This document shows positions 18,880 through 49,927 of a DNA stretch of 64,000 nucleotides, one piece after another. The translations under genes and the position numbers were made by a program. The notes below the pieces were generated by a model that saw nothing but the letters and a program-made list of their open reading frames with translations, ran no database searches and had not been told where the DNA came from. Position 1 is the first letter of the stretch; each line of letters opens with the position of its first letter. Source of the stretch: Candidatus Heimdallarchaeota archaeon (GTDB lineage Archaea; Asgardarchaeota; Heimdallarchaeia; Hodarchaeales; Hodarchaeaceae); assembly GCA_011364965.1 (NCBI GenBank), contig RDOB01000007.1:62001-126000 (forward strand), written 5' to 3'.

Positions 18880-19899
18880 ATGAGTGATTTTCTTTTTGGA
18901 CCTATTGGTGAAAAATTACTGGAATTAATACAAAGCTTTTCTAATCCCGTTTTAGATTTATATTTTGGCATTATTACAACCCTAGGTGATACCCTACCGA
19001 TTCTTATCATAATTATTCTTCTTTATTACACAATTAATAAAGAATTTATAAATAAAGTGATTTATGTACTTATTTTTTCTGCTCATTTGAATACTGTCGC
19101 CAAAATTATCTTTCATAACCCAAGACCGTTTCAATATGATATAAAATACCAAAAAATAACTAACGTGTTCGGTATGGAAACTACGTGGAGTGCTGGGGGA
19201 TATTCTTTTCCCTCAGGACATTCAAACACGCAAGGCGCCTTTTGGGGATATGTTTTTTCCCGCTATAGAACACCAGTATATATAATATTAGGATTCCTCC
19301 TTCTTACCACCATCCCACTTTCTCGAACATATCTTGGAGTTCATTGGCCTAGTGATATACTTATAGGAGTGTTATTTGGATTATTAATAGCTTATTCTTT
19401 CCTATATGCCGAAAAAAGGTATGGTGAGTCTCTCCGCAACCAATCAAATGGAAAAAAGATAATATTAGGTTTTTGCGCAAGTTTTGGATTGTTAATCCTT
19501 GGATTAATTGCATTATTTTTAGGTACAATATTACCATTCAATCAACAGATCTTGATCACTGATCCTTTTGTTTGGGATGAGGCAAATATTGGAACATATC
19601 CTGGAATTCTTGCTGGGTTTATTGCTGGGCAAGTTTTAGAAAAAAAATATGTGGATTTTAAAATCAGAAGAGAAAATAAAAAAATCATTGCTATACGTTC
19701 AATAATTGGTTTAGTCACAGTTATTGTGTTATATTTGGTAGCTGGAAAAATTGAGGATCTTGCTACTGAGTTTTCAGATCAAATTGCTTGGAGTACAACG
19801 ATAGCTAATTATTTCTCATATCTATTGATTGCTTTCTTTTTAGCATTTATAATCCCGTGGATATTTACAAAAATCGAATCTCTTATTTTTTCTGATTAA
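18880..19899 (+). CDS. PAP2-family membrane phosphatase
   Basis: An integral membrane phosphatase of the phosphatidic acid phosphatase type 2 family, probably acting on lipid phosphates or undecaprenyl/dolichyl-type pyrophosphates. The three catalytic motifs are visible: KIIFHNPRP (about residues 71-79), PSGHS (about 111) and SRTYLGVHWPSD (about 148). Eight or more hydrophobic spans are seen over 339 residues, longer than minimal PAP2 enzymes because of three additional C-terminal spans. It is a single gene flanked by a poly-T terminator. Substrate cannot be read from sequence. Confidence 0.87.
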   Translation: MSDFLFGPIGEKLLELIQSFSNPVLDLYFGIITTLGDTLPILIIIILLYYTINKEFINKVIYVLIFSAHLNTVAKIIFHNPRPFQYDIKYQKITNVFGMETTWSAGGYSFPSGHSNTQGAFWGYVFSRYRTPVYIILGFLLLTTIPLSRTYLGVHWPSDILIGVLFGLLIAYSFLYAEKRYGESLRNQSNGKKIILGFCASFGLLILGLIALFLGTILPFNQQILITDPFVWDEANIGTYPGILAGFIAGQVLEKKYVDFKIRRENKKIIAIRSIIGLVTVIVLYLVAGKIEDLATEFSDQIAWSTTIANYFSYLLIAFFLAFIIPWIFTKIESLIFSD

Positions 19900-25492: not shown

Positions 25493-26155
25493 GTGAAACG
25501 ATTCAAAGGCTTCCTTACTGGAAAAAAACCAAGTTCGTCCACAGAAACGAAAGCTAAATTAAAACGGACAATTAATCAGATGGAAGTGAAAATTAAAAAT
25601 TATAATCGCCAAGCAGATGAACAATACGAGCTAGCACGCAATCTCTTGAAATCGGGGAATAAAACAGGAGCACAACAGGCATTAAAACGACGAGAGTTAT
25701 ATCTAACGCAAATTACAAATACACATGCTAAAATTGCTAATCTTCAGCGTACTATAGATACTTTAGATGTATCTGCAGACAATGTGTCGTTAACACAAAC
25801 TCTTGGGGAAGCTCAAGTTGCAATTGATCAAAATATAGCTTCAGCATCCCCCGAAAAAACTGAAGAAATCATGATGGCTTTGGAGGATTCAATAGAACAA
25901 GTTTCAGATATGGAGGAAGCATTAACAGACACTACAATCACCGAGATAGGGATGGATGTGGAAGTTGATGATCGGATTTCTGCCCAAATGGCAGAATTAG
26001 AAGCTGAAATTGCTTCAGGCTCTCTTCCAAGTACTGGTGTGAGAACATCAGAACCCCCCATTCCAGTAAGTTCTGATACACCGGAAAAGAGGGAAGCTGA
26101 GAAGAAAAAGATAGATGAGATGCGGAAACAGATTGAAGAAGGGTTGAGATCTTAA
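25493..26155 (+). CDS. ESCRT-III protein, Snf7/CHMP4-like (Vps20/32/60 class)
   Basis: A 220-residue charged helical protein. The N-terminal half is basic (MKRFKGFLTGKKPSSSTETK, then a long helical hairpin with AQQALKRRELYLTQITNTHAK), and the C-terminal half is acidic (EVDDRISAQMAELEAEIAS), the charge layout of ESCRT-III. The start is GTG at 25493. The C-terminus (KKIDEMRKQIEEGLRS) is helical and could act as a MIT-interacting motif for Vps4. It stops 2 bases before the second ESCRT-III gene, so the pair is an operon. It should polymerise on membranes and help bud or cut them from inside. Confidence 0.9.
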   Translation: MKRFKGFLTGKKPSSSTETKAKLKRTINQMEVKIKNYNRQADEQYELARNLLKSGNKTGAQQALKRRELYLTQITNTHAKIANLQRTIDTLDVSADNVSLTQTLGEAQVAIDQNIASASPEKTEEIMMALEDSIEQVSDMEEALTDTTITEIGMDVEVDDRISAQMAELEAEIASGSLPSTGVRTSEPPIPVSSDTPEKREAEKKKIDEMRKQIEEGLRS

Positions 26156-26157
26156 AA

Positions 26158-26769
26158 ATGGTATTTGATAAATTCGGAAATTGGTTGAAAGGAGGAAGTA
26201 ACAGCCAGAACACTCGGAAATGGATTGTTCGTCTACGTATGGTCGAGAAACGTATGGTCAGGCAGCGAAACAAGCTGATAAAAGAAGAAAGACAAATGTT
26301 AAAAGAAGTTGAGCATGCTATCGAACAAGGTGATATGTCTACAGCTCGTTTATTAGCTCGTGATGTCGCTAAAAATCGATCCATGGCCCGAGGTTGTCAA
26401 CAAATGGCCAGTCGTGTGAAAGCAATCAAATTTAAACTTGAACAAGCTGCAGCAACCCAAGCCATTGGGAAAGATCTGAAAGGACTCGTCCGTACTCTAC
26501 ACACTATGAATGCTCAGTTGAAAATACCCCAACTTGAAGGTGTTCTACAACAAATGGAAATCGAAACTGAACGTATTGACATTGCCACAGAGGCTATGGA
26601 TGAAGGTTTCGAGATGATGACTACAAGTGAAGAAGAGGATGAAGTGGTGGATAAGATAATAGGAGAATTGAGTGCTTCTAAAGCAGCAACAGCTGATTTC
26701 GGGCTACCTTCCCCTGATATCCGCTCTCAAGAGCTCCAAAAAGAACTTGAAAAGATAAAAAAGGGATAA
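26158..26769 (+). CDS. ESCRT-III protein, Vps2/24/46-like with MIM1-like tail
   Basis: A 203-residue ESCRT-III subunit. A basic helical N-terminus (KWIVRLRMVEKRMVRQRNKLI) is followed by the hairpin and an acidic C-terminal half (TTSEEEDEVVDKIIGEL). The last helix ELQKELEKIKKG resembles the MIM1 motif that Vps2-class subunits use to dock the Vps4 MIT domain. It begins 2 bases after the previous ESCRT-III gene, and the Vps4 gene starts 70 bases downstream. With one Snf7-like and one Vps2-like subunit the system has the two-subunit ESCRT-III set typical of Asgard archaea. Confidence 0.9.
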   Translation: MVFDKFGNWLKGGSNSQNTRKWIVRLRMVEKRMVRQRNKLIKEERQMLKEVEHAIEQGDMSTARLLARDVAKNRSMARGCQQMASRVKAIKFKLEQAAATQAIGKDLKGLVRTLHTMNAQLKIPQLEGVLQQMEIETERIDIATEAMDEGFEMMTTSEEEDEVVDKIIGELSASKAATADFGLPSPDIRSQELQKELEKIKKG

Positions 26770-26839
26770 ATTCCTCCCCTCTCTTTTCCTTTCAGAATTT
26801 CACCTTAATCTCTAAAAAAAATTTATTAGTGGATGAATT

Positions 26840-27985
26840 ATGAGTTCCCCTTTATTCGAAGCAGCAAAGAAGAATGCAGAAAGAGCATATCAGCTCGATC
26901 AAAGTGGCCAGAGTCATCAAGCAGTTAGATATTATGTTAATGCCGCAGAACAGCTTCAACAGCTAATTAATTTTACTGATGATCCTAATATGAAGAATTT
27001 ATACTTTCAGAAAGCAATGGAGTATATTTTAAGGGTAAAAGAAATACGTGGAATTATTGAACCCTCTGAAAACAAACCTAGATCTTCTAGGGCTCCTCCC
27101 GAAGAATCAGATGAGATTTCAGATGCTATTTCGAGTGTAATTGTAAGAGAAAAACCCAATGTGAGGTGGGAAGATGTTGCAGGAATGGAAGAAGCAAAAC
27201 GTGCCCTTAGGGAAGCAATAATCTTACCAATGACACGTCCTGATTTGTTTAAGGGTTCACGTAAACCTTGGAAGGGTGTATTAATGTTTGGACCACCAGG
27301 TTGTGGAAAAACCTATTTGTGCAAGGCCGTTGCATCAGAAGTAGAATCAACCTTTTTTTCTGTCAGTGCAGCGAATCTTATTAGTAAATGGTTAGGAGAA
27401 TCAGAAAAACTCGTGAATGAGTTATACGAACGAGCAGTTGAAGAAGCTCCTTCAATTATATTTTTCGATGAAATCGATGCGTTAGCAAGTGCAAGGGGAG
27501 GAGCATCGGAAAATGAAGCAATGCGACGGGTTAAAACTCAATTATTGCAAGCTGTAGAAGGTTTTGCAACAGGTGATGAGTTACTAGTCACAGTTGGAGC
27601 CACTAATACACCATGGGATATTGATGCGGCAATGAGACGCAGATTTGAAAGAAGAGTTTACATTACATTACCCACTTCAGAAGCTCGAGAAAAAATGTTT
27701 CAGATTCATACACGAGGAGTCGATCTAGCCTCTGGTGTGAATTTTTCTGAGCTATCTTCCTATACTGCTGGATATACAGCTGCAGATATAGCGTTATTAT
27801 GTCGCGAGGCTTTGATGCGCCCGATTCGAGAACTAGATGCCGAAGGTGCACTCAAAGATTTGAGTGTGCAACCCCGGGCACCAGATATTGACGATTTTCT
27901 TCAAGGAATGGAGCACATTAAACCCTCCGTCTCACCTAAAGAGTTAGCAAGATATGAAGATTGGAGAGACCAGTTTGGAGGATAG
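26840..27985 (+). CDS. vps4: Vps4 AAA ATPase with MIT domain
   Basis: A 381-residue AAA ATPase that disassembles ESCRT-III polymers. Residues 1-72 form a MIT three-helix bundle. A Pro/Ser-rich linker follows at about 75-95. Walker A is GPPGCGKT (151-158), Walker B is IIFFDEIDA (DE at 210-211), and two arginine fingers sit in MRRRFERRVY. The C-terminal part (DIDDFLQGMEHIKPSVSPKE) matches the Vps4 beta-domain/C-terminal helix region, and the beta domain is shortened as in archaeal Vps4. The Vps25-like gene follows after 32 bases. Confidence 0.95.
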   Translation: MSSPLFEAAKKNAERAYQLDQSGQSHQAVRYYVNAAEQLQQLINFTDDPNMKNLYFQKAMEYILRVKEIRGIIEPSENKPRSSRAPPEESDEISDAISSVIVREKPNVRWEDVAGMEEAKRALREAIILPMTRPDLFKGSRKPWKGVLMFGPPGCGKTYLCKAVASEVESTFFSVSAANLISKWLGESEKLVNELYERAVEEAPSIIFFDEIDALASARGGASENEAMRRVKTQLLQAVEGFATGDELLVTVGATNTPWDIDAAMRRRFERRVYITLPTSEAREKMFQIHTRGVDLASGVNFSELSSYTAGYTAADIALLCREALMRPIRELDAEGALKDLSVQPRAPDIDDFLQGMEHIKPSVSPKELARYEDWRDQFGG

Positions 27986-28017
27986 GCCTTTTTTTGGATT
28001 TCTAGGAGTACAAGTAA

Positions 28018-28797
28018 ATGGCTGAAGTCCAACGTGAAAGAAAAAAGAAAAAAACCAAGGAAAAAACATCAGAAACAGTCGATACTCTTGCAGCAATATT
28101 GGATGAGGTCACAAAACCCGAGGAACCTAAATTTGAGCCAGATTTAACAAAAATCCAGCAAAAAATAATCCATTCATCCCAATCTAGCCAAAATAAACAG
28201 ATTTCTCTCCCAGAAATTTCTATTCAAGTTTCTTCTGAAAAAGAGGAAATGGAATCTCAACTTGTCCCTGGAAAGGTTGATGTTCGAATAAAACCTATAC
28301 TTCCCTCATGGGTACAAAAACCTTGGAGATGGATGGTACCTGAAGAACCTAATTTGAAACAGCAGTGGCTTTTAACTTGGGGGGAATTTATTTTAGACTT
28401 TTCGCGAGTCCTCAATCTCCATATAATTGATTTACAGGAGATCAGCCTTGTATATCCATTCCAAAATCAGATTCTGAATAAAAAACTTACGCTTCCCCAG
28501 TTGATAATGATTTCTGATCATTTAATCGAAATTGAGAAAGCAAAATGGTGGGATTCGGAAAAAACCCGTCTTCGTGTCTATTGGAAGACCTTAAATTCAT
28601 TTGCAGATGATTTATTTGAATTCGCGTTTCAGAATGGTTATGATATGGTAACTGCCTATGATATAGTCAAGATGAATCAATCGTGGTCAGATTTGCCTCC
28701 TTCTGATGTACGGGTACTTATGCGATTATTAGTTGAGTTGAAACGTGCCTCTTGGGCCGACTCAGATAAGAAAACCATTCAATTTCATTATGAGTAA
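28018..28797 (+). CDS. ESCRT-II Vps25-like protein with long N-terminal extension
   Basis: A 259-residue protein. Residues 1-95 form a Lys/Glu- and Gln/Ser-rich, probably disordered extension (RERKKKKTKEKTSETVDTL). From residue 96 the sequence aligns with eukaryotic Vps25: PWRWMVPEEPNLKQQWLLTW, then the winged helix with PFQNQILNKKLTLPQL, the KAKWWDSEKTRLRVYW strand, and the second winged helix ending QFHYE. Vps25 binds ESCRT-III subunit Vps20 in eukaryotes. The extension, unlike the short N-terminus of eukaryotic Vps25, may recruit Ubl or ESCRT-III. It starts 32 bases after Vps4 and ends before a hairpin terminator. Confidence 0.83.
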   Translation: MAEVQRERKKKKTKEKTSETVDTLAAILDEVTKPEEPKFEPDLTKIQQKIIHSSQSSQNKQISLPEISIQVSSEKEEMESQLVPGKVDVRIKPILPSWVQKPWRWMVPEEPNLKQQWLLTWGEFILDFSRVLNLHIIDLQEISLVYPFQNQILNKKLTLPQLIMISDHLIEIEKAKWWDSEKTRLRVYWKTLNSFADDLFEFAFQNGYDMVTAYDIVKMNQSWSDLPPSDVRVLMRLLVELKRASWADSDKKTIQFHYE

Positions 28798-28808
28798 TTT
28801 TTACTTCT

Positions 28809-28830
28809 ATCTATGAATAGATTTTTTTTC
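28809..28830 (+). terminator. Hairpin plus T-run terminator after the ESCRT block
   Basis: A perfect palindrome ATCTAT-GA-ATAGAT (28809-28822) is followed directly by seven T residues. It lies 11 bases after the Vps25-like stop and before the ribosomal gene uS2, and likely ends ESCRT transcription. Confidence 0.62.
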
Positions 28831-28956
28831 TATTTTACATTTTACTTCTGTTTATTCTGAAAGGGGACAAACTCCAAAACTTCTTAACTCTTTTTTTTGT
28901 TGGATTCTATGAGAATATAAGAGTGATAAGCTGGAACTCTGAGGAATTACTATCAA

Positions 28957-29613
28957 ATGTTAAACCCTGATGATGAAGGGGAGCTATTGGCCCCCTTAGA
29001 GGATTATTTGAAGGCAGGCGTTCATATTGGTACATCTTCTGGGATGAAAAGTATGGACTGGGCAATTTATCGAACCAGGAGTGATGGGTTGTATGTTCTT
29101 GATGTTCATAAAACAGATGAACGCATCCGAGTAGCAGCAAAGTTCCTTGCTAGACAACAGGATATGAAAAGAGTCGTTGTATGCAGTGTACGTGCTTATG
29201 GGATATATCCTGTAGAAATGTTTGCGAAGGTTTCAGGTGCACAATCAATTACTGGCAGATTCATTCCTGGAATATTTACGAATCCTAGTATAAAAGGCAG
29301 AAATGATTATTTGGAACCAACAGCAGTTCTAATCACAGATCCTCACTTTGATCGTCAAGCATTGAAAGAGGCGTCACGTGTGGGAATCCCTGTGATCTCT
29401 CTTGTAGATACAGATAACGTGATTCGGTATGTTGATCTCGCGATTCCCTGTAACAATAAAGGCCGAAATTCTCTAGCAATGATATTCTGGTTGTTAACTA
29501 AGGAAATCCTACGAGAAAAAGGTGAATTAACACCAGAAAAAGACGCACAGCTTCGAATTGAGCTTTTCCGTGCACCTAGAGGACGCAGACCCCTTCAAGT
29601 GGGCGATATCTAA
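28957..29613 (+). CDS. rpsB: 30S ribosomal protein uS2
   Basis: A 218-residue ribosomal protein of archaeal/eukaryotic S2 (RPSA) type. Family stretches are visible: YLKAGVHIGT, MDWAIYRTRSDGLYVLD, FIPGIFTNPSIKGRNDYLEPTA (seen as FIPGIFTNP and YLEPTAVLITDP) and PVISLVDTDN, followed by IPCNNKGRNSLAMIFWLL. At about 218 residues it fits archaeal uS2. It is followed 23 bases later by rpoN, the classic archaeal S2-RpoN neighbourhood. The start is the ATG at 28957, without an obvious ribosome binding site. It is an essential core gene and marks this segment as chromosomal. Confidence 0.95.
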   Translation: MLNPDDEGELLAPLEDYLKAGVHIGTSSGMKSMDWAIYRTRSDGLYVLDVHKTDERIRVAAKFLARQQDMKRVVVCSVRAYGIYPVEMFAKVSGAQSITGRFIPGIFTNPSIKGRNDYLEPTAVLITDPHFDRQALKEASRVGIPVISLVDTDNVIRYVDLAIPCNNKGRNSLAMIFWLLTKEILREKGELTPEKDAQLRIELFRAPRGRRPLQVGDI

Positions 29614-41782: not shown

Positions 41783-42238
41783 TTATAGAAAATGGTTCCA
41801 GAATCCTGCTTCTGGAAAACCCCAAGAACCCGTTTTTGTCCAGCGACAGTATGTTTTGAGCCAAACCTCAACCATTTTTGCAGTTTCATACGAAGTATAG
41901 GATAAATGCCAGTCTTTTTTGGGACGTAAGTAGCATATGAGGGCATGGCCTTCTTTATCCCATTCATACACATGAGGTGTTTTTTCGGGGATTTTAGGTT
42001 TTTGTACCCAAACCTTAGGAGCATTAATAGGATAATTATATGGGTATTCAATAAGAACGTCAAAATAACCACATGCATATTTACCTGTGGTAATAAAGCT
42101 AATTTGAACGCAGTAATTACCATTTGCCAATTGCTGAAAGTCCTGCTCCTTAACACTGGGAAAAAGCTTTTGCAAGGGTTTCAATTCCCGATCTGAAATT
42201 CTTTGGCGTAATGACAAGTTTGAAGCTCCATAGCTCAT
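41783..42238 (-). CDS. Bacterial-type E2 (UBC-like) protein A, catalytic Cys102
   Basis: A 151-residue E2-fold protein, a tandem paralogue of the next gene. It has YACGYFDVLIEYPYNYPINAP, HVYEWDKEGHALICYLRPKKDW with Cys102, and WLKTYCRWTKTGSWGFPEA. The start codon overlaps the E1 stop (TAATG), so translation is coupled. Relative to the E2 at 10.9 kb it lacks HPN and the DPLN tail, and the family is different. Which modifier it carries is unknown, as no Ubl gene is adjacent. Confidence 0.85.
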   Translation of the reverse strand: MSYGASNLSLRQRISDRELKPLQKLFPSVKEQDFQQLANGNYCVQISFITTGKYACGYFDVLIEYPYNYPINAPKVWVQKPKIPEKTPHVYEWDKEGHALICYLRPKKDWHLSYTSYETAKMVEVWLKTYCRWTKTGSWGFPEAGFWNHFL

Positions 42239-43497
42239 TAATCAGGATTGTTAATATCTGAAGAGAAATTAGGAACTGACGATGTGCTGTGAAAAGGACA
42301 GGTAGGATCAGTGGTCAAATCCTCATAATAATAAAGCTCAAGACCATCATACTTAATGGCAGTTTGATCTGAAGTTTTGATAGTACGATTATACCACATA
42401 TAGAAGTTGTAAGGAAAATGATACAATCCATGGGGAATTCCTGTTAAAAGTAAATCCAAACAGAATTTTGCTAATAGTAAGGTTAAGTTATCCACATCTA
42501 ATCCCAATCCTGGTTGGGCAAGCTGTTCTTGCAAAGTGCGGTCGTATGTAATTTTGTGTTCTAATTCGATAGTGGTCGGTATAGAGCTAGAACCAGTCTC
42601 AGGTTTGGCATAGACACAATGATAACAATAATCTCCTTTCCGCGGGTCAACCTTAAACATTAAACCTCCTTTTACTCCAGCAAATGTTCCTGCATATACT
42701 AGGGGAATGGCTAATTGATTGGTATGAACGAAATCATTGATCGCATAATTGACATCGTGCTCTCCAGAAACAGCAGCGATTAAATCTATTCCTTGGAGTG
42801 ACTCAAGGAAGAAATCAAAGTCTTTTTTGGTATGTAAAACGAACTTCTGTTCTATAGTTTCAATTTGAACATCAGGAATTCGAGCTAGGATATAATCTTT
42901 CACTGCTCGAGTTTTAAAGCGACCAAGTTGGGACAGATCGCAAATATGACGAATAATATTGTGAGTCTCAAGCAAATCGTCGTCGATAAAGATAAAGTTT
43001 TTCACTCCAGACTTAGCAAGATATAATGCTAAAAGCGATCCTCCAGACCCCATACCAATGATAGCTACTTTTTTCTTCTTCAACTCTCCTAAGGGTGTTT
43101 CTTTTTGATCAATTCGGACAAATAAGCGATCTAAATTCACAAATTCGAATTCAACTTCAGTATTACCTTCTGAGAGATAAAACCTGAATTTAAGATTGAT
43201 AAAATCTTTAGTACTAGTTGCATGAAGAAAAGGAAAATTAAAAATCGATTGAAGCTTAGAAACATCAAGAGGAGAGTCCTCTAAAGTTAAGACACCGATC
43301 GATTGGGGAGATTGGACAGTAGTCAAGCCAGTAACATGATAGAGAGTATAATCATCAAAATATCGGCCAGAAAGCCACAATGTTGAACTTTTAGCAATCT
43401 GTTTTCTTTTAACTTGATAATCATGTTTAAATGACGGATAAACTAGAATTTTAAGAGGTTTAGCAAAGGTCAATTCAACCCCTCCATTATTTTCCAT
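42238..43497 (-). CDS. ThiF/E1-like activating enzyme with N-terminal domain
   Basis: A 419-residue E1-like enzyme. The first 135 residues form a separate beta-rich domain of unknown function. The adenylation domain has AIIGMGSGGSLLALYLAKSG (148-153 glycine loop), FIDDDLLETHNIIRH with the ATP-contacting Asn-x2-Arg, GRFKTRAVKDYI, and a half zinc motif CYHC near residue 288. A catalytic Cys is not obvious. This form matches E1s of bacterial E1-E2-JAB gene clusters rather than the eukaryotic-like E1 at 16.9 kb. It overlaps the JAB gene by 28 bases and E2 A by one base. Confidence 0.87.
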   Translation of the reverse strand: MENNGGVELTFAKPLKILVYPSFKHDYQVKRKQIAKSSTLWLSGRYFDDYTLYHVTGLTTVQSPQSIGVLTLEDSPLDVSKLQSIFNFPFLHATSTKDFINLKFRFYLSEGNTEVEFEFVNLDRLFVRIDQKETPLGELKKKKVAIIGMGSGGSLLALYLAKSGVKNFIFIDDDLLETHNIIRHICDLSQLGRFKTRAVKDYILARIPDVQIETIEQKFVLHTKKDFDFFLESLQGIDLIAAVSGEHDVNYAINDFVHTNQLAIPLVYAGTFAGVKGGLMFKVDPRKGDYCYHCVYAKPETGSSSIPTTIELEHKITYDRTLQEQLAQPGLGLDVDNLTLLLAKFCLDLLLTGIPHGLYHFPYNFYMWYNRTIKTSDQTAIKYDGLELYYYEDLTTDPTCPFHSTSSVPNFSSDINNPD

Positions 43498-44435
43498 AAA
43501 GGTTCGGATAATAATTCCAAAACTTCACCTTCAAGAGAAGCTTTGAGTGAAAGTAAAAATGGATGGAGTAAATCCGGGTCTACCAGTAAATTTGCCGGAT
43601 GTTTTTCAACAGTAAAGTTCCGAGACATATCAGAAGATGAGATATCTATGTATAATTGACCCTCAGGAAAATTAGACGGAAAAGAAAGAAGAACCAAAAC
43701 ATTCACAGAAAGTTCACTCCCCTCAACGATAATAGTAAATTTATAGGGGAATGAGATAATTTTTTCTCCCCGAGTAGATCCAGGAAACTCCTGAATGTCG
43801 TTTAAAGTAAAAGTAGTGTCAAATACTTCAATTAAAGCTTCTTTTATGGGAAGAAGTTGTTCAGGTAAGATTCCTATCGGTTTTAGCGGGGAAATCTCCA
43901 TACCCGCGGACATAATTCTGATATTCGACACAGGAATCCGTAATGTTTCAAAATTAGCACTACTAGGTTCCGTTGCCAAAGCTTGGTCTCTTCGATATAA
44001 TTCAATGATTACTTCAGGATCTGAATCTGGAAGAAAATCCACTATTAGGGCAAGAATTAGGTTCCTATGAGGATTCAACATAAAAAAATCACTAATTTCC
44101 CCATGATCCCTATGACTGGGCCCTCCATATCCAAGATGTTTGTGCCAATTCCCTAAATATAGTGTTGTTTCTTGTTCTAGGAGCTGTTTTGCATATTCGG
44201 GATCAATTTCGAAATACATATGTTCTCGAACAGCAAGATTGTCGGGTGGTATTTCCATCCTCTCAATGCAGATATCTAATCCCCCATTAATATTTCGAAT
44301 GGTTCCAAATAGCATTCCTCCAGTTTCCCTTCCTACCCATTTGGTTGCTTCTTCAATAATCTGGTCATAGATATCTTGACTTAAATATAGAAAAATACTG
44401 TCCTCTGGTTCAGGAAACATCAAAACTACCCTCAT
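43470..44435 (-). CDS. JAB/JAMM metallopeptidase fused to an RWD/UEV-like domain
   Basis: A 321-residue predicted deconjugating peptidase. The JAMM zinc site is complete: Glu37 in RETGGMLFG, H98-x-H100, S107 and D110 in WHKHLGYGGPSHRDHGEI. After residue 180 a second domain looks like an RWD/E2-related fold (FPYKFTIIVEGSELSVNVLV, then LSFPSNFPEGQLYIDIS), which could bind the E1 or an E2. A start at 44420 (MFPEPEDS) is possible because GAGGG lies upstream of it. It is the second gene of the operon, 38 bases after the peptide gene. It may mature a modifier or remove it. Confidence 0.85.
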   Translation of the reverse strand: MRVVLMFPEPEDSIFLYLSQDIYDQIIEEATKWVGRETGGMLFGTIRNINGGLDICIERMEIPPDNLAVREHMYFEIDPEYAKQLLEQETTLYLGNWHKHLGYGGPSHRDHGEISDFFMLNPHRNLILALIVDFLPDSDPEVIIELYRRDQALATEPSSANFETLRIPVSNIRIMSAGMEISPLKPIGILPEQLLPIKEALIEVFDTTFTLNDIQEFPGSTRGEKIISFPYKFTIIVEGSELSVNVLVLLSFPSNFPEGQLYIDISSSDMSRNFTVEKHPANLLVDPDLLHPFLLSLKASLEGEVLELLSEPLWKIMEGLN

Positions 44436-46448: not shown

Positions 46449-47228
46449 TTGGCATCCACGATAGATAATGATCACAGCGAGCCTTCTCAAACTGGAAAAG
46501 GACATCCATTAGTATTATTACATGGCTATTCAGGAAATTCTGAGATACACTGGAAAAATCAAATAAATAACTCTCTAATAAGAGCAGAATATCATATAAT
46601 TACTCCTAATATGTTTAGTTTTACGAATAAAAACCGAATGGAAATTCAAACAAAAACAAATTCGACGAATGAGGTTAAAAAGCTTAGATATTTCTTAAAA
46701 AAGCATATAAAAATATCTAAACCCTTATTTTTAGTTGGATACTCTATCGGAGGAGCACTTGCATTAACATACGCCTCATTCTTTCCTCAAGATGTACTAG
46801 GAATAATTCTTGTAAGTCCACTTGCGTTCTTGAATTCCTTTATTCCTACTGTCCCCACACTTCCGAAACGGACCATTACTAAAAATTTCACTAGAAAAGA
46901 AAGCTCATTTTACAAAGCAACTTGGGTTGTTTTCAAACGTATTATCAAAACTCTGTCTACTCTGAATCTGAAATTAAATGATGAAAGAGTAGTGAAATCC
47001 CTAAAAAACTTGCATCTACTAAATATTCCAATTTTACTCACATACGGTCTGGAAGATAGCATTAATCCATCACAAAACTATGAATTATTAAAAAAATATC
47101 TACCATTGAGGACTCAAATTGTCCCATTCCAAGGAGATCATAGTTTTCATGATACAGAACCTGAAAAATTTAATGAAGTCCTCTTATCGTTCTGTAAGGA
47201 TGTTCGCAGCAAAAAAAACAAACATTAA
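46449..47228 (+). CDS. Alpha/beta hydrolase
   Basis: A 259-residue serine hydrolase fold. The nucleophile elbow is VGYSIGGALAL (Ser near residue 99), the oxyanion HG motif is LLHGYSGNSE near residue 25, the catalytic Asp is likely in GLEDSINP and the His in GDHSFHD. Substrate could be an ester or thioester; a lipid is possible given that fatty-acid kinase and PlsY genes follow. The start is TTG at 46449, preceded by GGGAG eleven bases upstream. Its stop is 140 bases before the FakA gene, so it is not clearly in that operon. Confidence 0.8.
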   Translation: MASTIDNDHSEPSQTGKGHPLVLLHGYSGNSEIHWKNQINNSLIRAEYHIITPNMFSFTNKNRMEIQTKTNSTNEVKKLRYFLKKHIKISKPLFLVGYSIGGALALTYASFFPQDVLGIILVSPLAFLNSFIPTVPTLPKRTITKNFTRKESSFYKATWVVFKRIIKTLSTLNLKLNDERVVKSLKNLHLLNIPILLTYGLEDSINPSQNYELLKKYLPLRTQIVPFQGDHSFHDTEPEKFNEVLLSFCKDVRSKKNKH

Positions 47229-47368: not shown

Positions 47369-48400
47369 GTGGTATATGAGATGTCAGAGGATGATTTTAC
47401 TCTAATGGATTATAAGATATATCCAGAGGTCATTCTCCCCTCTGAACTCGTTTTCATGTTGCAAAACTCCTTAAAAAAACTAGAACAATATCGTAGCTTA
47501 TTAAATTCCATAAATGTTTTCCCAGTGCCTGATGGGGATACAGGAACCAATTTGGTGCAAACATTCCGATCAATTATTCATGAACTTTCGAATGTTGGCA
47601 TCAAAAATAATTGTGGGGAAATTATTTCGTTTGCATCGCAAGGTGCATTCACCAATTGCGCGGGAAGTTCAGGAAGTATTTTATCCGAGTATTTTAGGGG
47701 ACTAGAAATAGCTTGGAAAGACCAAAAGACGCTCAGCAATCATGATCTGGTGACAGGCTTAAAAAAAGGAGCAGAATTTGCATATAAAGCAGTAGTACGA
47801 CCTCGGGAAGGAACAATATTAACAGTCGCGCGACAGATTGGAGAATCAGCAGCAATCCTAGAGGAAACAGTAACAACCCCATTTGAATTACTATTGCTAA
47901 TTTTTGAAGATGCTAAGGTCGCTTTAAAAAATACCCGAAATATACTCAAAGAAGCAAAGAAAGCAGGAGTTGTTGACGCGGGAGCAATGGGATTAGTAAT
48001 CATGTTTGAAGGATTTCTCGAAACATTGAAGGATATTTATGCAGCTAAAATCAGCATTACTCCCGTAAGTGAAGATATCAGTGATTATCTAAATCCTGAA
48101 TTGCCCACGGACGAAATCCAGAAAGAATATGAAGTAATAATACAGATAACAGCATTAAAATATCCAATAAGTGTATTAATCGCAGAATTGCACCAACTTG
48201 GGAAAGCACTCGTTATAAATAAAACAAATCAGGAAGCAGTAATAAAAGTCCATATTCATTGTAAGGATCCAAAAGAGGTAATAAAAAAGATAGGACATTT
48301 AGCAGAATCAGTTATTATCATATCGATACAATCAATACACGAACAGGCCATGGAATTTATGAGAATATCAAATCAGGATATAGGAGAGACACCTGGTTGA
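47369..48400 (+). CDS. FakA-like fatty-acid kinase, DhaL-domain subunit
   Basis: A 343-residue protein. Residues 35-230 form a DhaL (Dak2) ATP-binding domain with NVFPVPDGDTGTN (Asp55/57), AGSSGSILSEYFRG, REGTILTVARQ and AGVVDAGAMG. A shorter C-terminal part resembles the middle domain of bacterial FakA, whereas bacterial FakA runs to about 550 residues, so this form is truncated or ancestral. FakA phosphorylates a fatty acid held by FakB. The DegV/FakB gene overlaps its end by four bases. GTG 47369 or ATG 47381 could be the start. Confidence 0.83.
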   Translation: MVYEMSEDDFTLMDYKIYPEVILPSELVFMLQNSLKKLEQYRSLLNSINVFPVPDGDTGTNLVQTFRSIIHELSNVGIKNNCGEIISFASQGAFTNCAGSSGSILSEYFRGLEIAWKDQKTLSNHDLVTGLKKGAEFAYKAVVRPREGTILTVARQIGESAAILEETVTTPFELLLLIFEDAKVALKNTRNILKEAKKAGVVDAGAMGLVIMFEGFLETLKDIYAAKISITPVSEDISDYLNPELPTDEIQKEYEVIIQITALKYPISVLIAELHQLGKALVINKTNQEAVIKVHIHCKDPKEVIKKIGHLAESVIIISIQSIHEQAMEFMRISNQDIGETPG

Positions 48401-49284
48401 AAATAGGTATAGTTACGGACTCTATGAGCGATCTGCCAGCTCAAATAGCTGAAAAATATCAAATAAAGATAATCCCAGGAGATATCTATATTAACGAGGA
48501 CAGGTACAAGAGTGGAATCGATTTAGATACAGAAGAATTAACAAAAATAATAACCGACAAAAATAAATCTTTTAGAACAGGAGCACCGTCACCCGGGGAG
48601 TATTATACTGCTTATAAAGAAATTCTAAATGAAGTAGACCTCATAATTAGCTTACATCCGCCAAGAAGGCAATCTGGAGCCTTGAATTCAGCTAACATCG
48701 CCCTACAAAGGGTTCCAGATGCCTCAAGAATAAAAATATTCGAAACGGGGGTAGCAACTCTGGGACTAGGGTTAACAGCCATTGCGACCGCTATAACAGC
48801 GCAAAAAACAAGCAATCAAACCGAGCTATTGACTCAAGTCCAAAAATACTGTGATCAAATTCAAGTCATAGGAACATTAGATTCGCTAAAATATGTAAGT
48901 AAAACAGGACGAATCAGTATAAAAATAGCCACAATGATGGCAGATGCATTATCCATCAAACCAATCCTAGTAATGAGAAATTCAGATATCATCCTAGCAG
49001 AAAGACCCAGAAAAAGATCAACTGCAATACACACAATAGTAAATATGCTATCAGAAACTTTGGATAGAGAGTTAATCCCCTCAATCATTGGCATAAGCAA
49101 CTTCCTATGTGAAGCAGATGCTCAACTGATGAGGCAGGAAATAGAAAAAGAATTTCCCAAATATCTAATTATCGAAGGGAATGCAGATCCCATGATTGCA
49201 GCAAACACTGGGCCTGGGTTATTATTAGTGGCTTGTTTTGCAGCTGCAAATAAGCAAATTGGAGGTAGAAAAATTAATTTTTGA
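48397..49284 (+). CDS. DegV-family fatty-acid-binding protein (FakB-like)
   Basis: A 295-residue DegV protein. KIGIVTDSMSDLP at the N-terminus, FRTGAPSPGEYY near residue 67, the SGALNSANIA loop and LKYVSKTGRIS are the family marks, with the fatty-acid carboxylate contact in the TGAPS/SG loops. FakB presents fatty acids to FakA for phosphorylation to acyl phosphate. It starts with TTG overlapping the FakA stop and its end overlaps the PlsY start by 47 bases, so the three are a tight unit. Confidence 0.88.
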   Translation: MKIGIVTDSMSDLPAQIAEKYQIKIIPGDIYINEDRYKSGIDLDTEELTKIITDKNKSFRTGAPSPGEYYTAYKEILNEVDLIISLHPPRRQSGALNSANIALQRVPDASRIKIFETGVATLGLGLTAIATAITAQKTSNQTELLTQVQKYCDQIQVIGTLDSLKYVSKTGRISIKIATMMADALSIKPILVMRNSDIILAERPRKRSTAIHTIVNMLSETLDRELIPSIIGISNFLCEADAQLMRQEIEKEFPKYLIIEGNADPMIAANTGPGLLLVACFAAANKQIGGRKINF

Positions 49285-49927
49285 ATTACTGTTAGGTGGA
49301 GGAATAGGATATCTCATAGGCTCTGTATTTATCACATATATTTGGGGGCAAATAAAGGGAATTGACCTAACACAAGAAGGAACAGGACAGTTAGGCGCTA
49401 CAAACGCGGGGCGGTTACTAGGCTGGCCATTATTGATAATAGGAGGGATATTTGATATTCTAAAGGCATATACTGCTCTAGTTCTAATTTACACTGTTTT
49501 TGGACTCTGGCTTAAAGTAAACTATCTGGAAATAATGTTAGCCAGTGGAAGCATAGGAATCCTGATAGGCCATATAAAATCCATCTGGATATGGATTGAA
49601 AAACATCAATGGCACGGTGGAAAAGGAGGTGCACCACTAGGTGGGATACTCCTATTCTATTCATGGCAAACGTTTCTCTTCCTCTATATTGGCCTGATGA
49701 CCTTGATGCAAATCATCAAAAAAATCATAACAAAGGAAAAAACATATGAAAACTTCATAACAAATAGCGTCGTTTTTGTGTGTATCCCCCCTATAATTTT
49801 CCTGTTCACCAGTAATATCTTCTATTTTGGATTAATACTACTTCTCGAAGGGATAATAATATATAGCGAGAGGGAAAAACTTTGGAGCATAATCAAGCAA
49901 GTTAAAAACCCCCCTCCTACAAAATAG
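49238..49927 (+). CDS. plsY: PlsY-like acyl-phosphate:glycerol-3-phosphate acyltransferase
   Basis: A 229-residue integral membrane acyltransferase. Motif 1 is GYLIGSVFITYI with EGTGQLGATNAGRLLGW (Asn/Gly-rich GATN as in bacterial PlsY), motif 2 is HGGKGGAPLGG, and several hydrophobic spans follow. PlsY transfers an acyl group from acyl phosphate to glycerol-3-phosphate to begin bacterial-type phospholipids. The upstream FakA and FakB would supply acyl phosphate. In a classic archaeon, whose membranes are ether-linked isoprenoid on glycerol-1-phosphate, this is out of place. The start at 49238 lies inside the DegV gene; a start at a later TTG or ATA cannot be excluded. Confidence 0.87.
   Translation: MQLQISKLEVEKLIFELLLGGGIGYLIGSVFITYIWGQIKGIDLTQEGTGQLGATNAGRLLGWPLLIIGGIFDILKAYTALVLIYTVFGLWLKVNYLEIMLASGSIGILIGHIKSIWIWIEKHQWHGGKGGAPLGGILLFYSWQTFLFLYIGLMTLMQIIKKIITKEKTYENFITNSVVFVCIPPIIFLFTSNIFYFGLILLLEGIIIYSEREKLWSIIKQVKNPPPTK

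Follow-up and report, generated by a model that had tools for sequence, protein, structure and literature searches.

In this study we describe three adjoining genes of an Asgard archaeon that encode a FakA-like fatty-acid kinase, a FakB-like carrier and a PlsY-family acyltransferase, and that probably form an acyl-phosphate relay, in which a fatty acid would be converted to acyl phosphate and its acyl chain then passed on to an acceptor. Their conserved order, a gene fusion in sister lineages and their joint distribution support one functional unit. We infer all of the chemistry from these observations, together with the genes' domain content and the residue changes found in their products. 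The window, meaning the whole stretch of 64,000 nucleotides that we analysed, covers positions 62001-126000 within a 126-kb contig of an assembly of 2.97 Mb (16 contigs, 87% complete), and our genome-wide statements are based on family searches. Asgard archaea are archaeal relatives of eukaryotes. We assign the source to them because the window carries Asgard-type genes, namely Ras and Arf GTPases, two ThiF genes, a gene for a JAB protein, a Vps4-like AAA gene with a MIT domain, and RadA; within them it probably belongs to the class Heimdallarchaeia. A search of a plasmid collection gave no match.

A preliminary description of the sequence had proposed a FakA-FakB-PlsY trio at this place, in this order and on the plus strand, and this reading was borne out (Table 1). 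The Pfam families agree: FakA matches Dak2 (E 4.4e-33) and, in its middle domain, FakA-like_M (4.3e-8), FakB matches DegV (E 8.2e-48) and PlsY matches G3P_acyltransf (E 4.9e-22). The NCBIfam equivalog cut-offs were missed by all three, FakA reaching 164.7 bits where 975 are needed, and FakB and PlsY staying below the cut-offs for FakB1 and PlsY. The trio thus consists of divergent family members, and for the same reason we call the kinase 'FakA-like'.

Table 1. Features of the Fak-PlsY locus (positions are those of the window)
Feature	Positions	Strand	Remarks
Alpha/beta hydrolase	46449..47228	+	Abhydrolase_1 E 3.6e-20; GYSIG nucleophile motif, residue 97; beside FakA in sister species G004 too
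FakA-like fatty-acid kinase	47369..48400	+	Dak2 and FakA-like_M, no FakB-docking domain; NVFPVPDGDTGTN and HxH kept; Cys240 replaced by Glu255
FakB-like (DegV) fatty-acid carrier	48397..49284	+	Thr61, Ser93 and Arg172 kept; GxHxGPG His replaced by Asn
PlsY-family acyl-phosphate acyltransferase	49277..49927	+	Start uncertain: TTG 49238, TTG 49259 or ATT 49277
PlsY codon at Aquifex His177 position (Glu)	49868..49870	+	Residue alignment
PlsY codon at Aquifex Asn180 position (Lys)	49877..49879	+	Residue alignment

The kinase contains the Mg/ATP motif NVFPVPDGDTGTN of the DAK2 kinase domain, and its HxH motif (His295, His297) is directly followed by a new cysteine in both species of the genus that carry the trio (HIHC). 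The column of Cys240 holds Glu255 in the window's genus and Cys in the PlsY-FakA fused relatives and in other families; among bacterial FakA proteins an Asp stands here in 15/80, mostly Chloroflexota. A dihydroxyacetone kinase was considered and rejected because the protein has the FakA middle domain, its gene adjoins a DegV gene, and the score of the DhaL model is far lower. The preliminary description had noted that part of the bacterial C-terminus is lacking. The loss is real, but it is not specific to this gene: the whole FakB-docking domain (FakA-like_C) is gone, none was found in 14 genomes of the order, and it is missing from every FakA examined in the class. As a separate gene, FakA_C was likewise not found in the order, and the matches in other families overlap or look like DegV genes. 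In Staphylococcus aureus the two-domain FakA_NL, without the docking domain, is an active kinase whose KM for FakB is roughly tenfold higher (0.99 versus 0.09 uM, PMC9136124). FakB keeps Thr61, Ser93 and the Arg172 needed for phosphorylation, and the His of its GxHxGPG motif is Asn in the window and in the sister species and His in families f2 and f3. The S. aureus FakA/FakB system (with PlsX and PlsY) hence shares with the archaeal proteins the DAK2 Mg/ATP motif, the HxH middle domain and a DegV carrier with an essential Arg. It differs from them in having the docking domain, and from those of the window's genus also at Cys240 and the FakB His; moreover, the Asgard unit lies in an operon or is fused with PlsY, and PlsX was not found in the genome.

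The FakA/FakB overlap of 4 nt (48397-48400) had been described before and is kept in 4/4 carriers of the order. The 47-nt overlap given at the same time for FakB and PlsY holds only if PlsY starts at TTG 49238; with ATT 49277 as the start it shrinks to 8 nt. In the sister species (G004) no ATG, GTG or TTG was found in the PlsY frame ahead of motif 1, because a TAG sits immediately upstream. Since the usual start codons are lacking there, the real start may be the shared ATT 49277 (AUU), or ribosomes may enter the PlsY frame through a frameshift (+1 slip). The ATT codon is common to both species, lies directly before the FakB end TTT TGA, and has a GGAGGT upstream of it in the window.

In the sister species the order hydrolase-FakA-FakB-PlsY is identical and FakA and FakB again overlap by 4 nt; between the two species dN is 0.20-0.35, well under a saturated dS of about 2 or more. 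In the sister family f2, two genomes from different genera (G012 and G013) have PlsY joined to the N-terminal end of FakA in proteins of 585 and about 600 aa, where Pfam places PlsY, Dak2 and FakA-like_M within one frame each, and FakB follows the fusion with a 4-nt overlap. The three genes adjoin as separate genes in six genomes of family f3, in one of which (G021) a TAA lies inside the FakB frame. In families f4-f7 they are mostly dispersed, and in several f5 genomes PlsY and a DegV gene are about 2-3 kb apart. Of the 14 genomes of the order, the four that have FakA are exactly those that have FakB (chance 1/1001, kinship ignored), and PlsY occurs in these four and in one genome with unlike copies. 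The earlier idea of a compact, linked Fak-PlsY unit in an archaeon is therefore upheld by the conserved operon, by the PlsY-FakA fusion and by joint presence and absence. Among bacterial FakA loci, FakB adjoins FakA in 21/80 and PlsY was found within 4 kb in 0/80. The fusion in the sister lineages suggests a working hand-over of acyl phosphate. Only 2/12 genomes of the window's genus have the trio, and as the other ten are without it, it is not essential.

In the FakA tree (45 rows) the Asgard proteins are all separated from the 27 sampled bacterial rows (support 95/96), and the exact placement of the f1 and f2 proteins within it is unsure because their branches are long. In a scan for bacterial donors over named genomes, the matches listed were from Bacillota and Chloroflexota, with no archaea among them. 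The PlsY proteins of the four carriers (f1 and f2) form a single clade (100/99), so that the ancestor of the order probably already had the Fak-PlsY unit, which would then have undergone a single fusion or fission.

The fold model of PlsY (pLDDT 89) matches the Aquifex aeolicus enzyme (5xj7, TMt 0.83), and its significant matches in the PDB are to PlsY only. The proteins of the order share with the Aquifex PlsY (PDB 5xj5-5xj9) the seven-helix fold, motif 1, the glycine loop, Arg45, His92 and Lys104, and they also keep Thr41; they differ from it by a five-residue insert ahead of the glycine loop. Further differences lie on the acceptor side. His177 is replaced by Glu (f1) or Asp (f2) and is thus acidic in 4/4 carriers of the order, Asn180 by Lys, Ser or Thr, and Ser35 by Thr, and Arg45 and Lys104 alone are kept of the G3P pocket (Ser35, Arg45, Lys104, Ser142, His177, Asn180). 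At position 142 almost every copy of the class has Asn. Among the other PlsY copies listed, which come from families f3-f7, nearly all retain both His177 and Asn180, and the PlsY of the f3 trio has a complete pocket apart from the Ser142 position. In Aquifex both residues bind G3P, and no side chain tried could replace His177 (PMC5700162). Since the residues that read the 2-OH and part of the phosphate are changed, the identity or the stereochemistry of the acceptor may differ from the bacterial one. An acyl-glycerol-3-phosphate product, as it had been proposed, is unsupported in that form. In vitro, bacterial FakAB and PlsY make lyso-PA from G3P and G1P alike (PMC13400652), so finding PlsY does not by itself tell the backbone stereochemistry, and the altered pocket makes it even less predictable.

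That Asgard genomes carry mixed lipid genes had been pointed out before and is true here as well. The own genome has two G1PDH-family proteins, whose best NCBIfam match is G1P dehydrogenase (under the equivalog cut-off), and a CarS above its cut-off, as well as a glycerol kinase above the NCBI equivalog cut-off (704.7 bits) and one PlsC-family protein under the subfamily cut-off. Of the genes whose search had been recommended, G1PDH homologues, CarS and a PlsC-like gene were hence found and GpsA was not. Neither GpsA nor PlsX was found by family search in 38 genomes, both with positive controls, and as no PlsX was found, no source of acyl phosphate other than FakAB was detected for PlsY. GGGPS was not found in the own assembly (PF01884 and an alignment of relatives), which is 87% complete, and is present in 8/11 other genomes of the genus. 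A PAP2-superfamily protein, a candidate lipid phosphatase, is encoded at window positions 18880-19899.

In the proposed relay FakB would bind a free fatty acid, for which the hydrolase encoded upstream, as an accessory, is a possible source. FakA, with its kinase and middle domains only, would phosphorylate the FakB-held fatty acid using ATP, and the unstable acyl phosphate would be handed straight to the membrane enzyme PlsY, which would move the acyl chain onto a small acceptor. The coupling would be translational (by the 4-nt overlap) and, in the sister family, covalent. A glycerol phosphate probably serves as the acceptor, either G3P, of which glycerol kinase is a possible source, or G1P via G1P dehydrogenase. 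As far as the sequences can be read, the Fak-PlsY route of bacteria takes a variant form here, in which Asgard archaea achieve coupling through fusion and the acceptor site has been remodelled. Against such a relay stand the lack of His177 and Asn180 in PlsY, Glu for Cys240 in FakA, Asn for His in FakB, the missed NCBIfam cut-offs and the ten genomes of the genus without the trio. We also know of no ester phospholipid from these organisms, which likewise counts against it.

Several other explanations have to be weighed. The families of the trio are mainly bacterial, and a bacterial contaminant had been named early on as a possible source; contamination or a binning error is nevertheless extremely improbable. 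On its 126-kb contig the trio is flanked by a Ras GTPase gene and by ThiF/JAB genes, the GC3 of FakA, FakB and PlsY (0.29, 0.30 and 0.36) lies within the range of 0.22-0.38 seen in 14 further genes of the window, and homologous operons exist in independent assemblies. We rejected contamination on these grounds, and the separation of the Asgard FakA from the bacterial rows also speaks against it. It might be possible that FakAB merely activates exogenous or recycled fatty acids for salvage or signalling, with PlsY as a minor remodelling enzyme and no bulk ester lipid. The patchy distribution in the genus, the ether-lipid genes in the genome and the hydrolase upstream of FakA would fit this explanation, which we take seriously although we do not expect it to be right: a conserved fusion of kinase and acyltransferase points to acyl transfer as the principal use of the acyl phosphate.

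The nature of the acceptor separates the remaining alternatives. If the route were the canonical bacterial one, PlsY would acylate G3P from glycerol kinase and the PlsC-like protein would add a second chain to give an ester phosphatidic acid. The glycerol kinase and the PlsC-family protein are at hand and the f3 trio has its nearly complete pocket (Asn at the Ser142 position); however, the loss of His177 and Asn180 and the change of Ser35 to Thr in the order, the lack of any GpsA match in the 38 genomes and the low score of the PlsC-like protein make this rather unlikely. To the same extent we doubt that PlsY has given up glycerol phosphate for a different acceptor, such as a headgroup that is uncharged or bears an amine, or an intermediate of archaeal lipid synthesis. 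Such a switch could account for the acidic position 177 and for Lys, Ser or Thr at position 180 on an enzyme that retains its acyl-phosphate side (His92, Lys104, glycine loop), but the phosphate clamp of Arg45 and Lys104 is retained too, suggesting a phosphate acceptor, and the trio has no linked gene for an acceptor. More speculative still, and in our view improbable, is a channelled kinase-acyltransferase, evolved by Asgard archaea of this class, whose acceptor site has been re-tuned from G3P to G1P or another archaeal lipid precursor and which would make chimeric ester lipids. Such lipids would lie on neither side of the lipid divide. We keep to the acyl-phosphate relay, probably onto a glycerol phosphate.

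PlsY and PlsC homologues have already been reported in Loki-, Thor- and Heimdallarchaeota (PMC6431249, PMC6737245), where bacterial-type acyltransferases occur, as here, alongside archaeal ether-lipid genes. In PMC6431249 no archaeal PlsX was found and a role in membrane lipid synthesis was judged unlikely; in contrast to this picture, the Asgard PlsY described here is physically linked to an acyl-phosphate source. The archaeal acyl-phosphate gap left by the missing PlsX is filled by a fatty acid kinase that both an operon and a fusion tie to PlsY, and the three proteins make ester lipid synthesis in some Asgard archaea a testable question. In Bellilinea and Thermanaerothrix, PlsY-DegV (FakB) fusions have led to a proposal of acyl phosphate channelling (PMC5700162). 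There too PlsY is covalently joined to part of a fatty-acid kinase, but in the archaeal fusion the partner at the C-terminus of PlsY is the kinase FakA instead of the carrier FakB. It complements the published fusion and, as a natural PlsY-FakA fusion, bears on acyl phosphate channelling, and the altered PlsY pocket may reveal what sets the choice of acceptor. In the open-access papers searched we found no report of Fak in Asgard archaea or of a PlsY-FakA fusion; the only one of them to speak of Asgard archaea as well as of fatty acid kinase is PMC13400652, which in its available text reports no Fak in these archaea.

Related proteins occur outside the trio as well. One genome of the same genus without FakA and FakB (G010) encodes two PlsY-like proteins (L024, 5152-5931 and 6898-7704) in which Arg45, Lys104 and the HRxN motif are missing. 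Family f5 has DAK2-only FakA-like proteins of about 214-261 aa (L044-L048, L050-L054, L152, L153); its genomes each encode 9-15 DegV proteins, and in some of them a DegV gene lies close to PlsY. In family f3 (e.g. G021, G014, G015) single genomes gave up to 13 PlsY-family and 24 DegV-family matches. Elsewhere in the window, a JAB-domain protein, an E1-like ThiF and a 151-aa protein without a Pfam match, perhaps E2-like, are encoded at 41783-44435, which looks like a ubiquitin-type modification locus. At 25493-29613 a Vps4-like AAA gene with a MIT domain lies amid further small genes in what is likely an ESCRT-type cluster.
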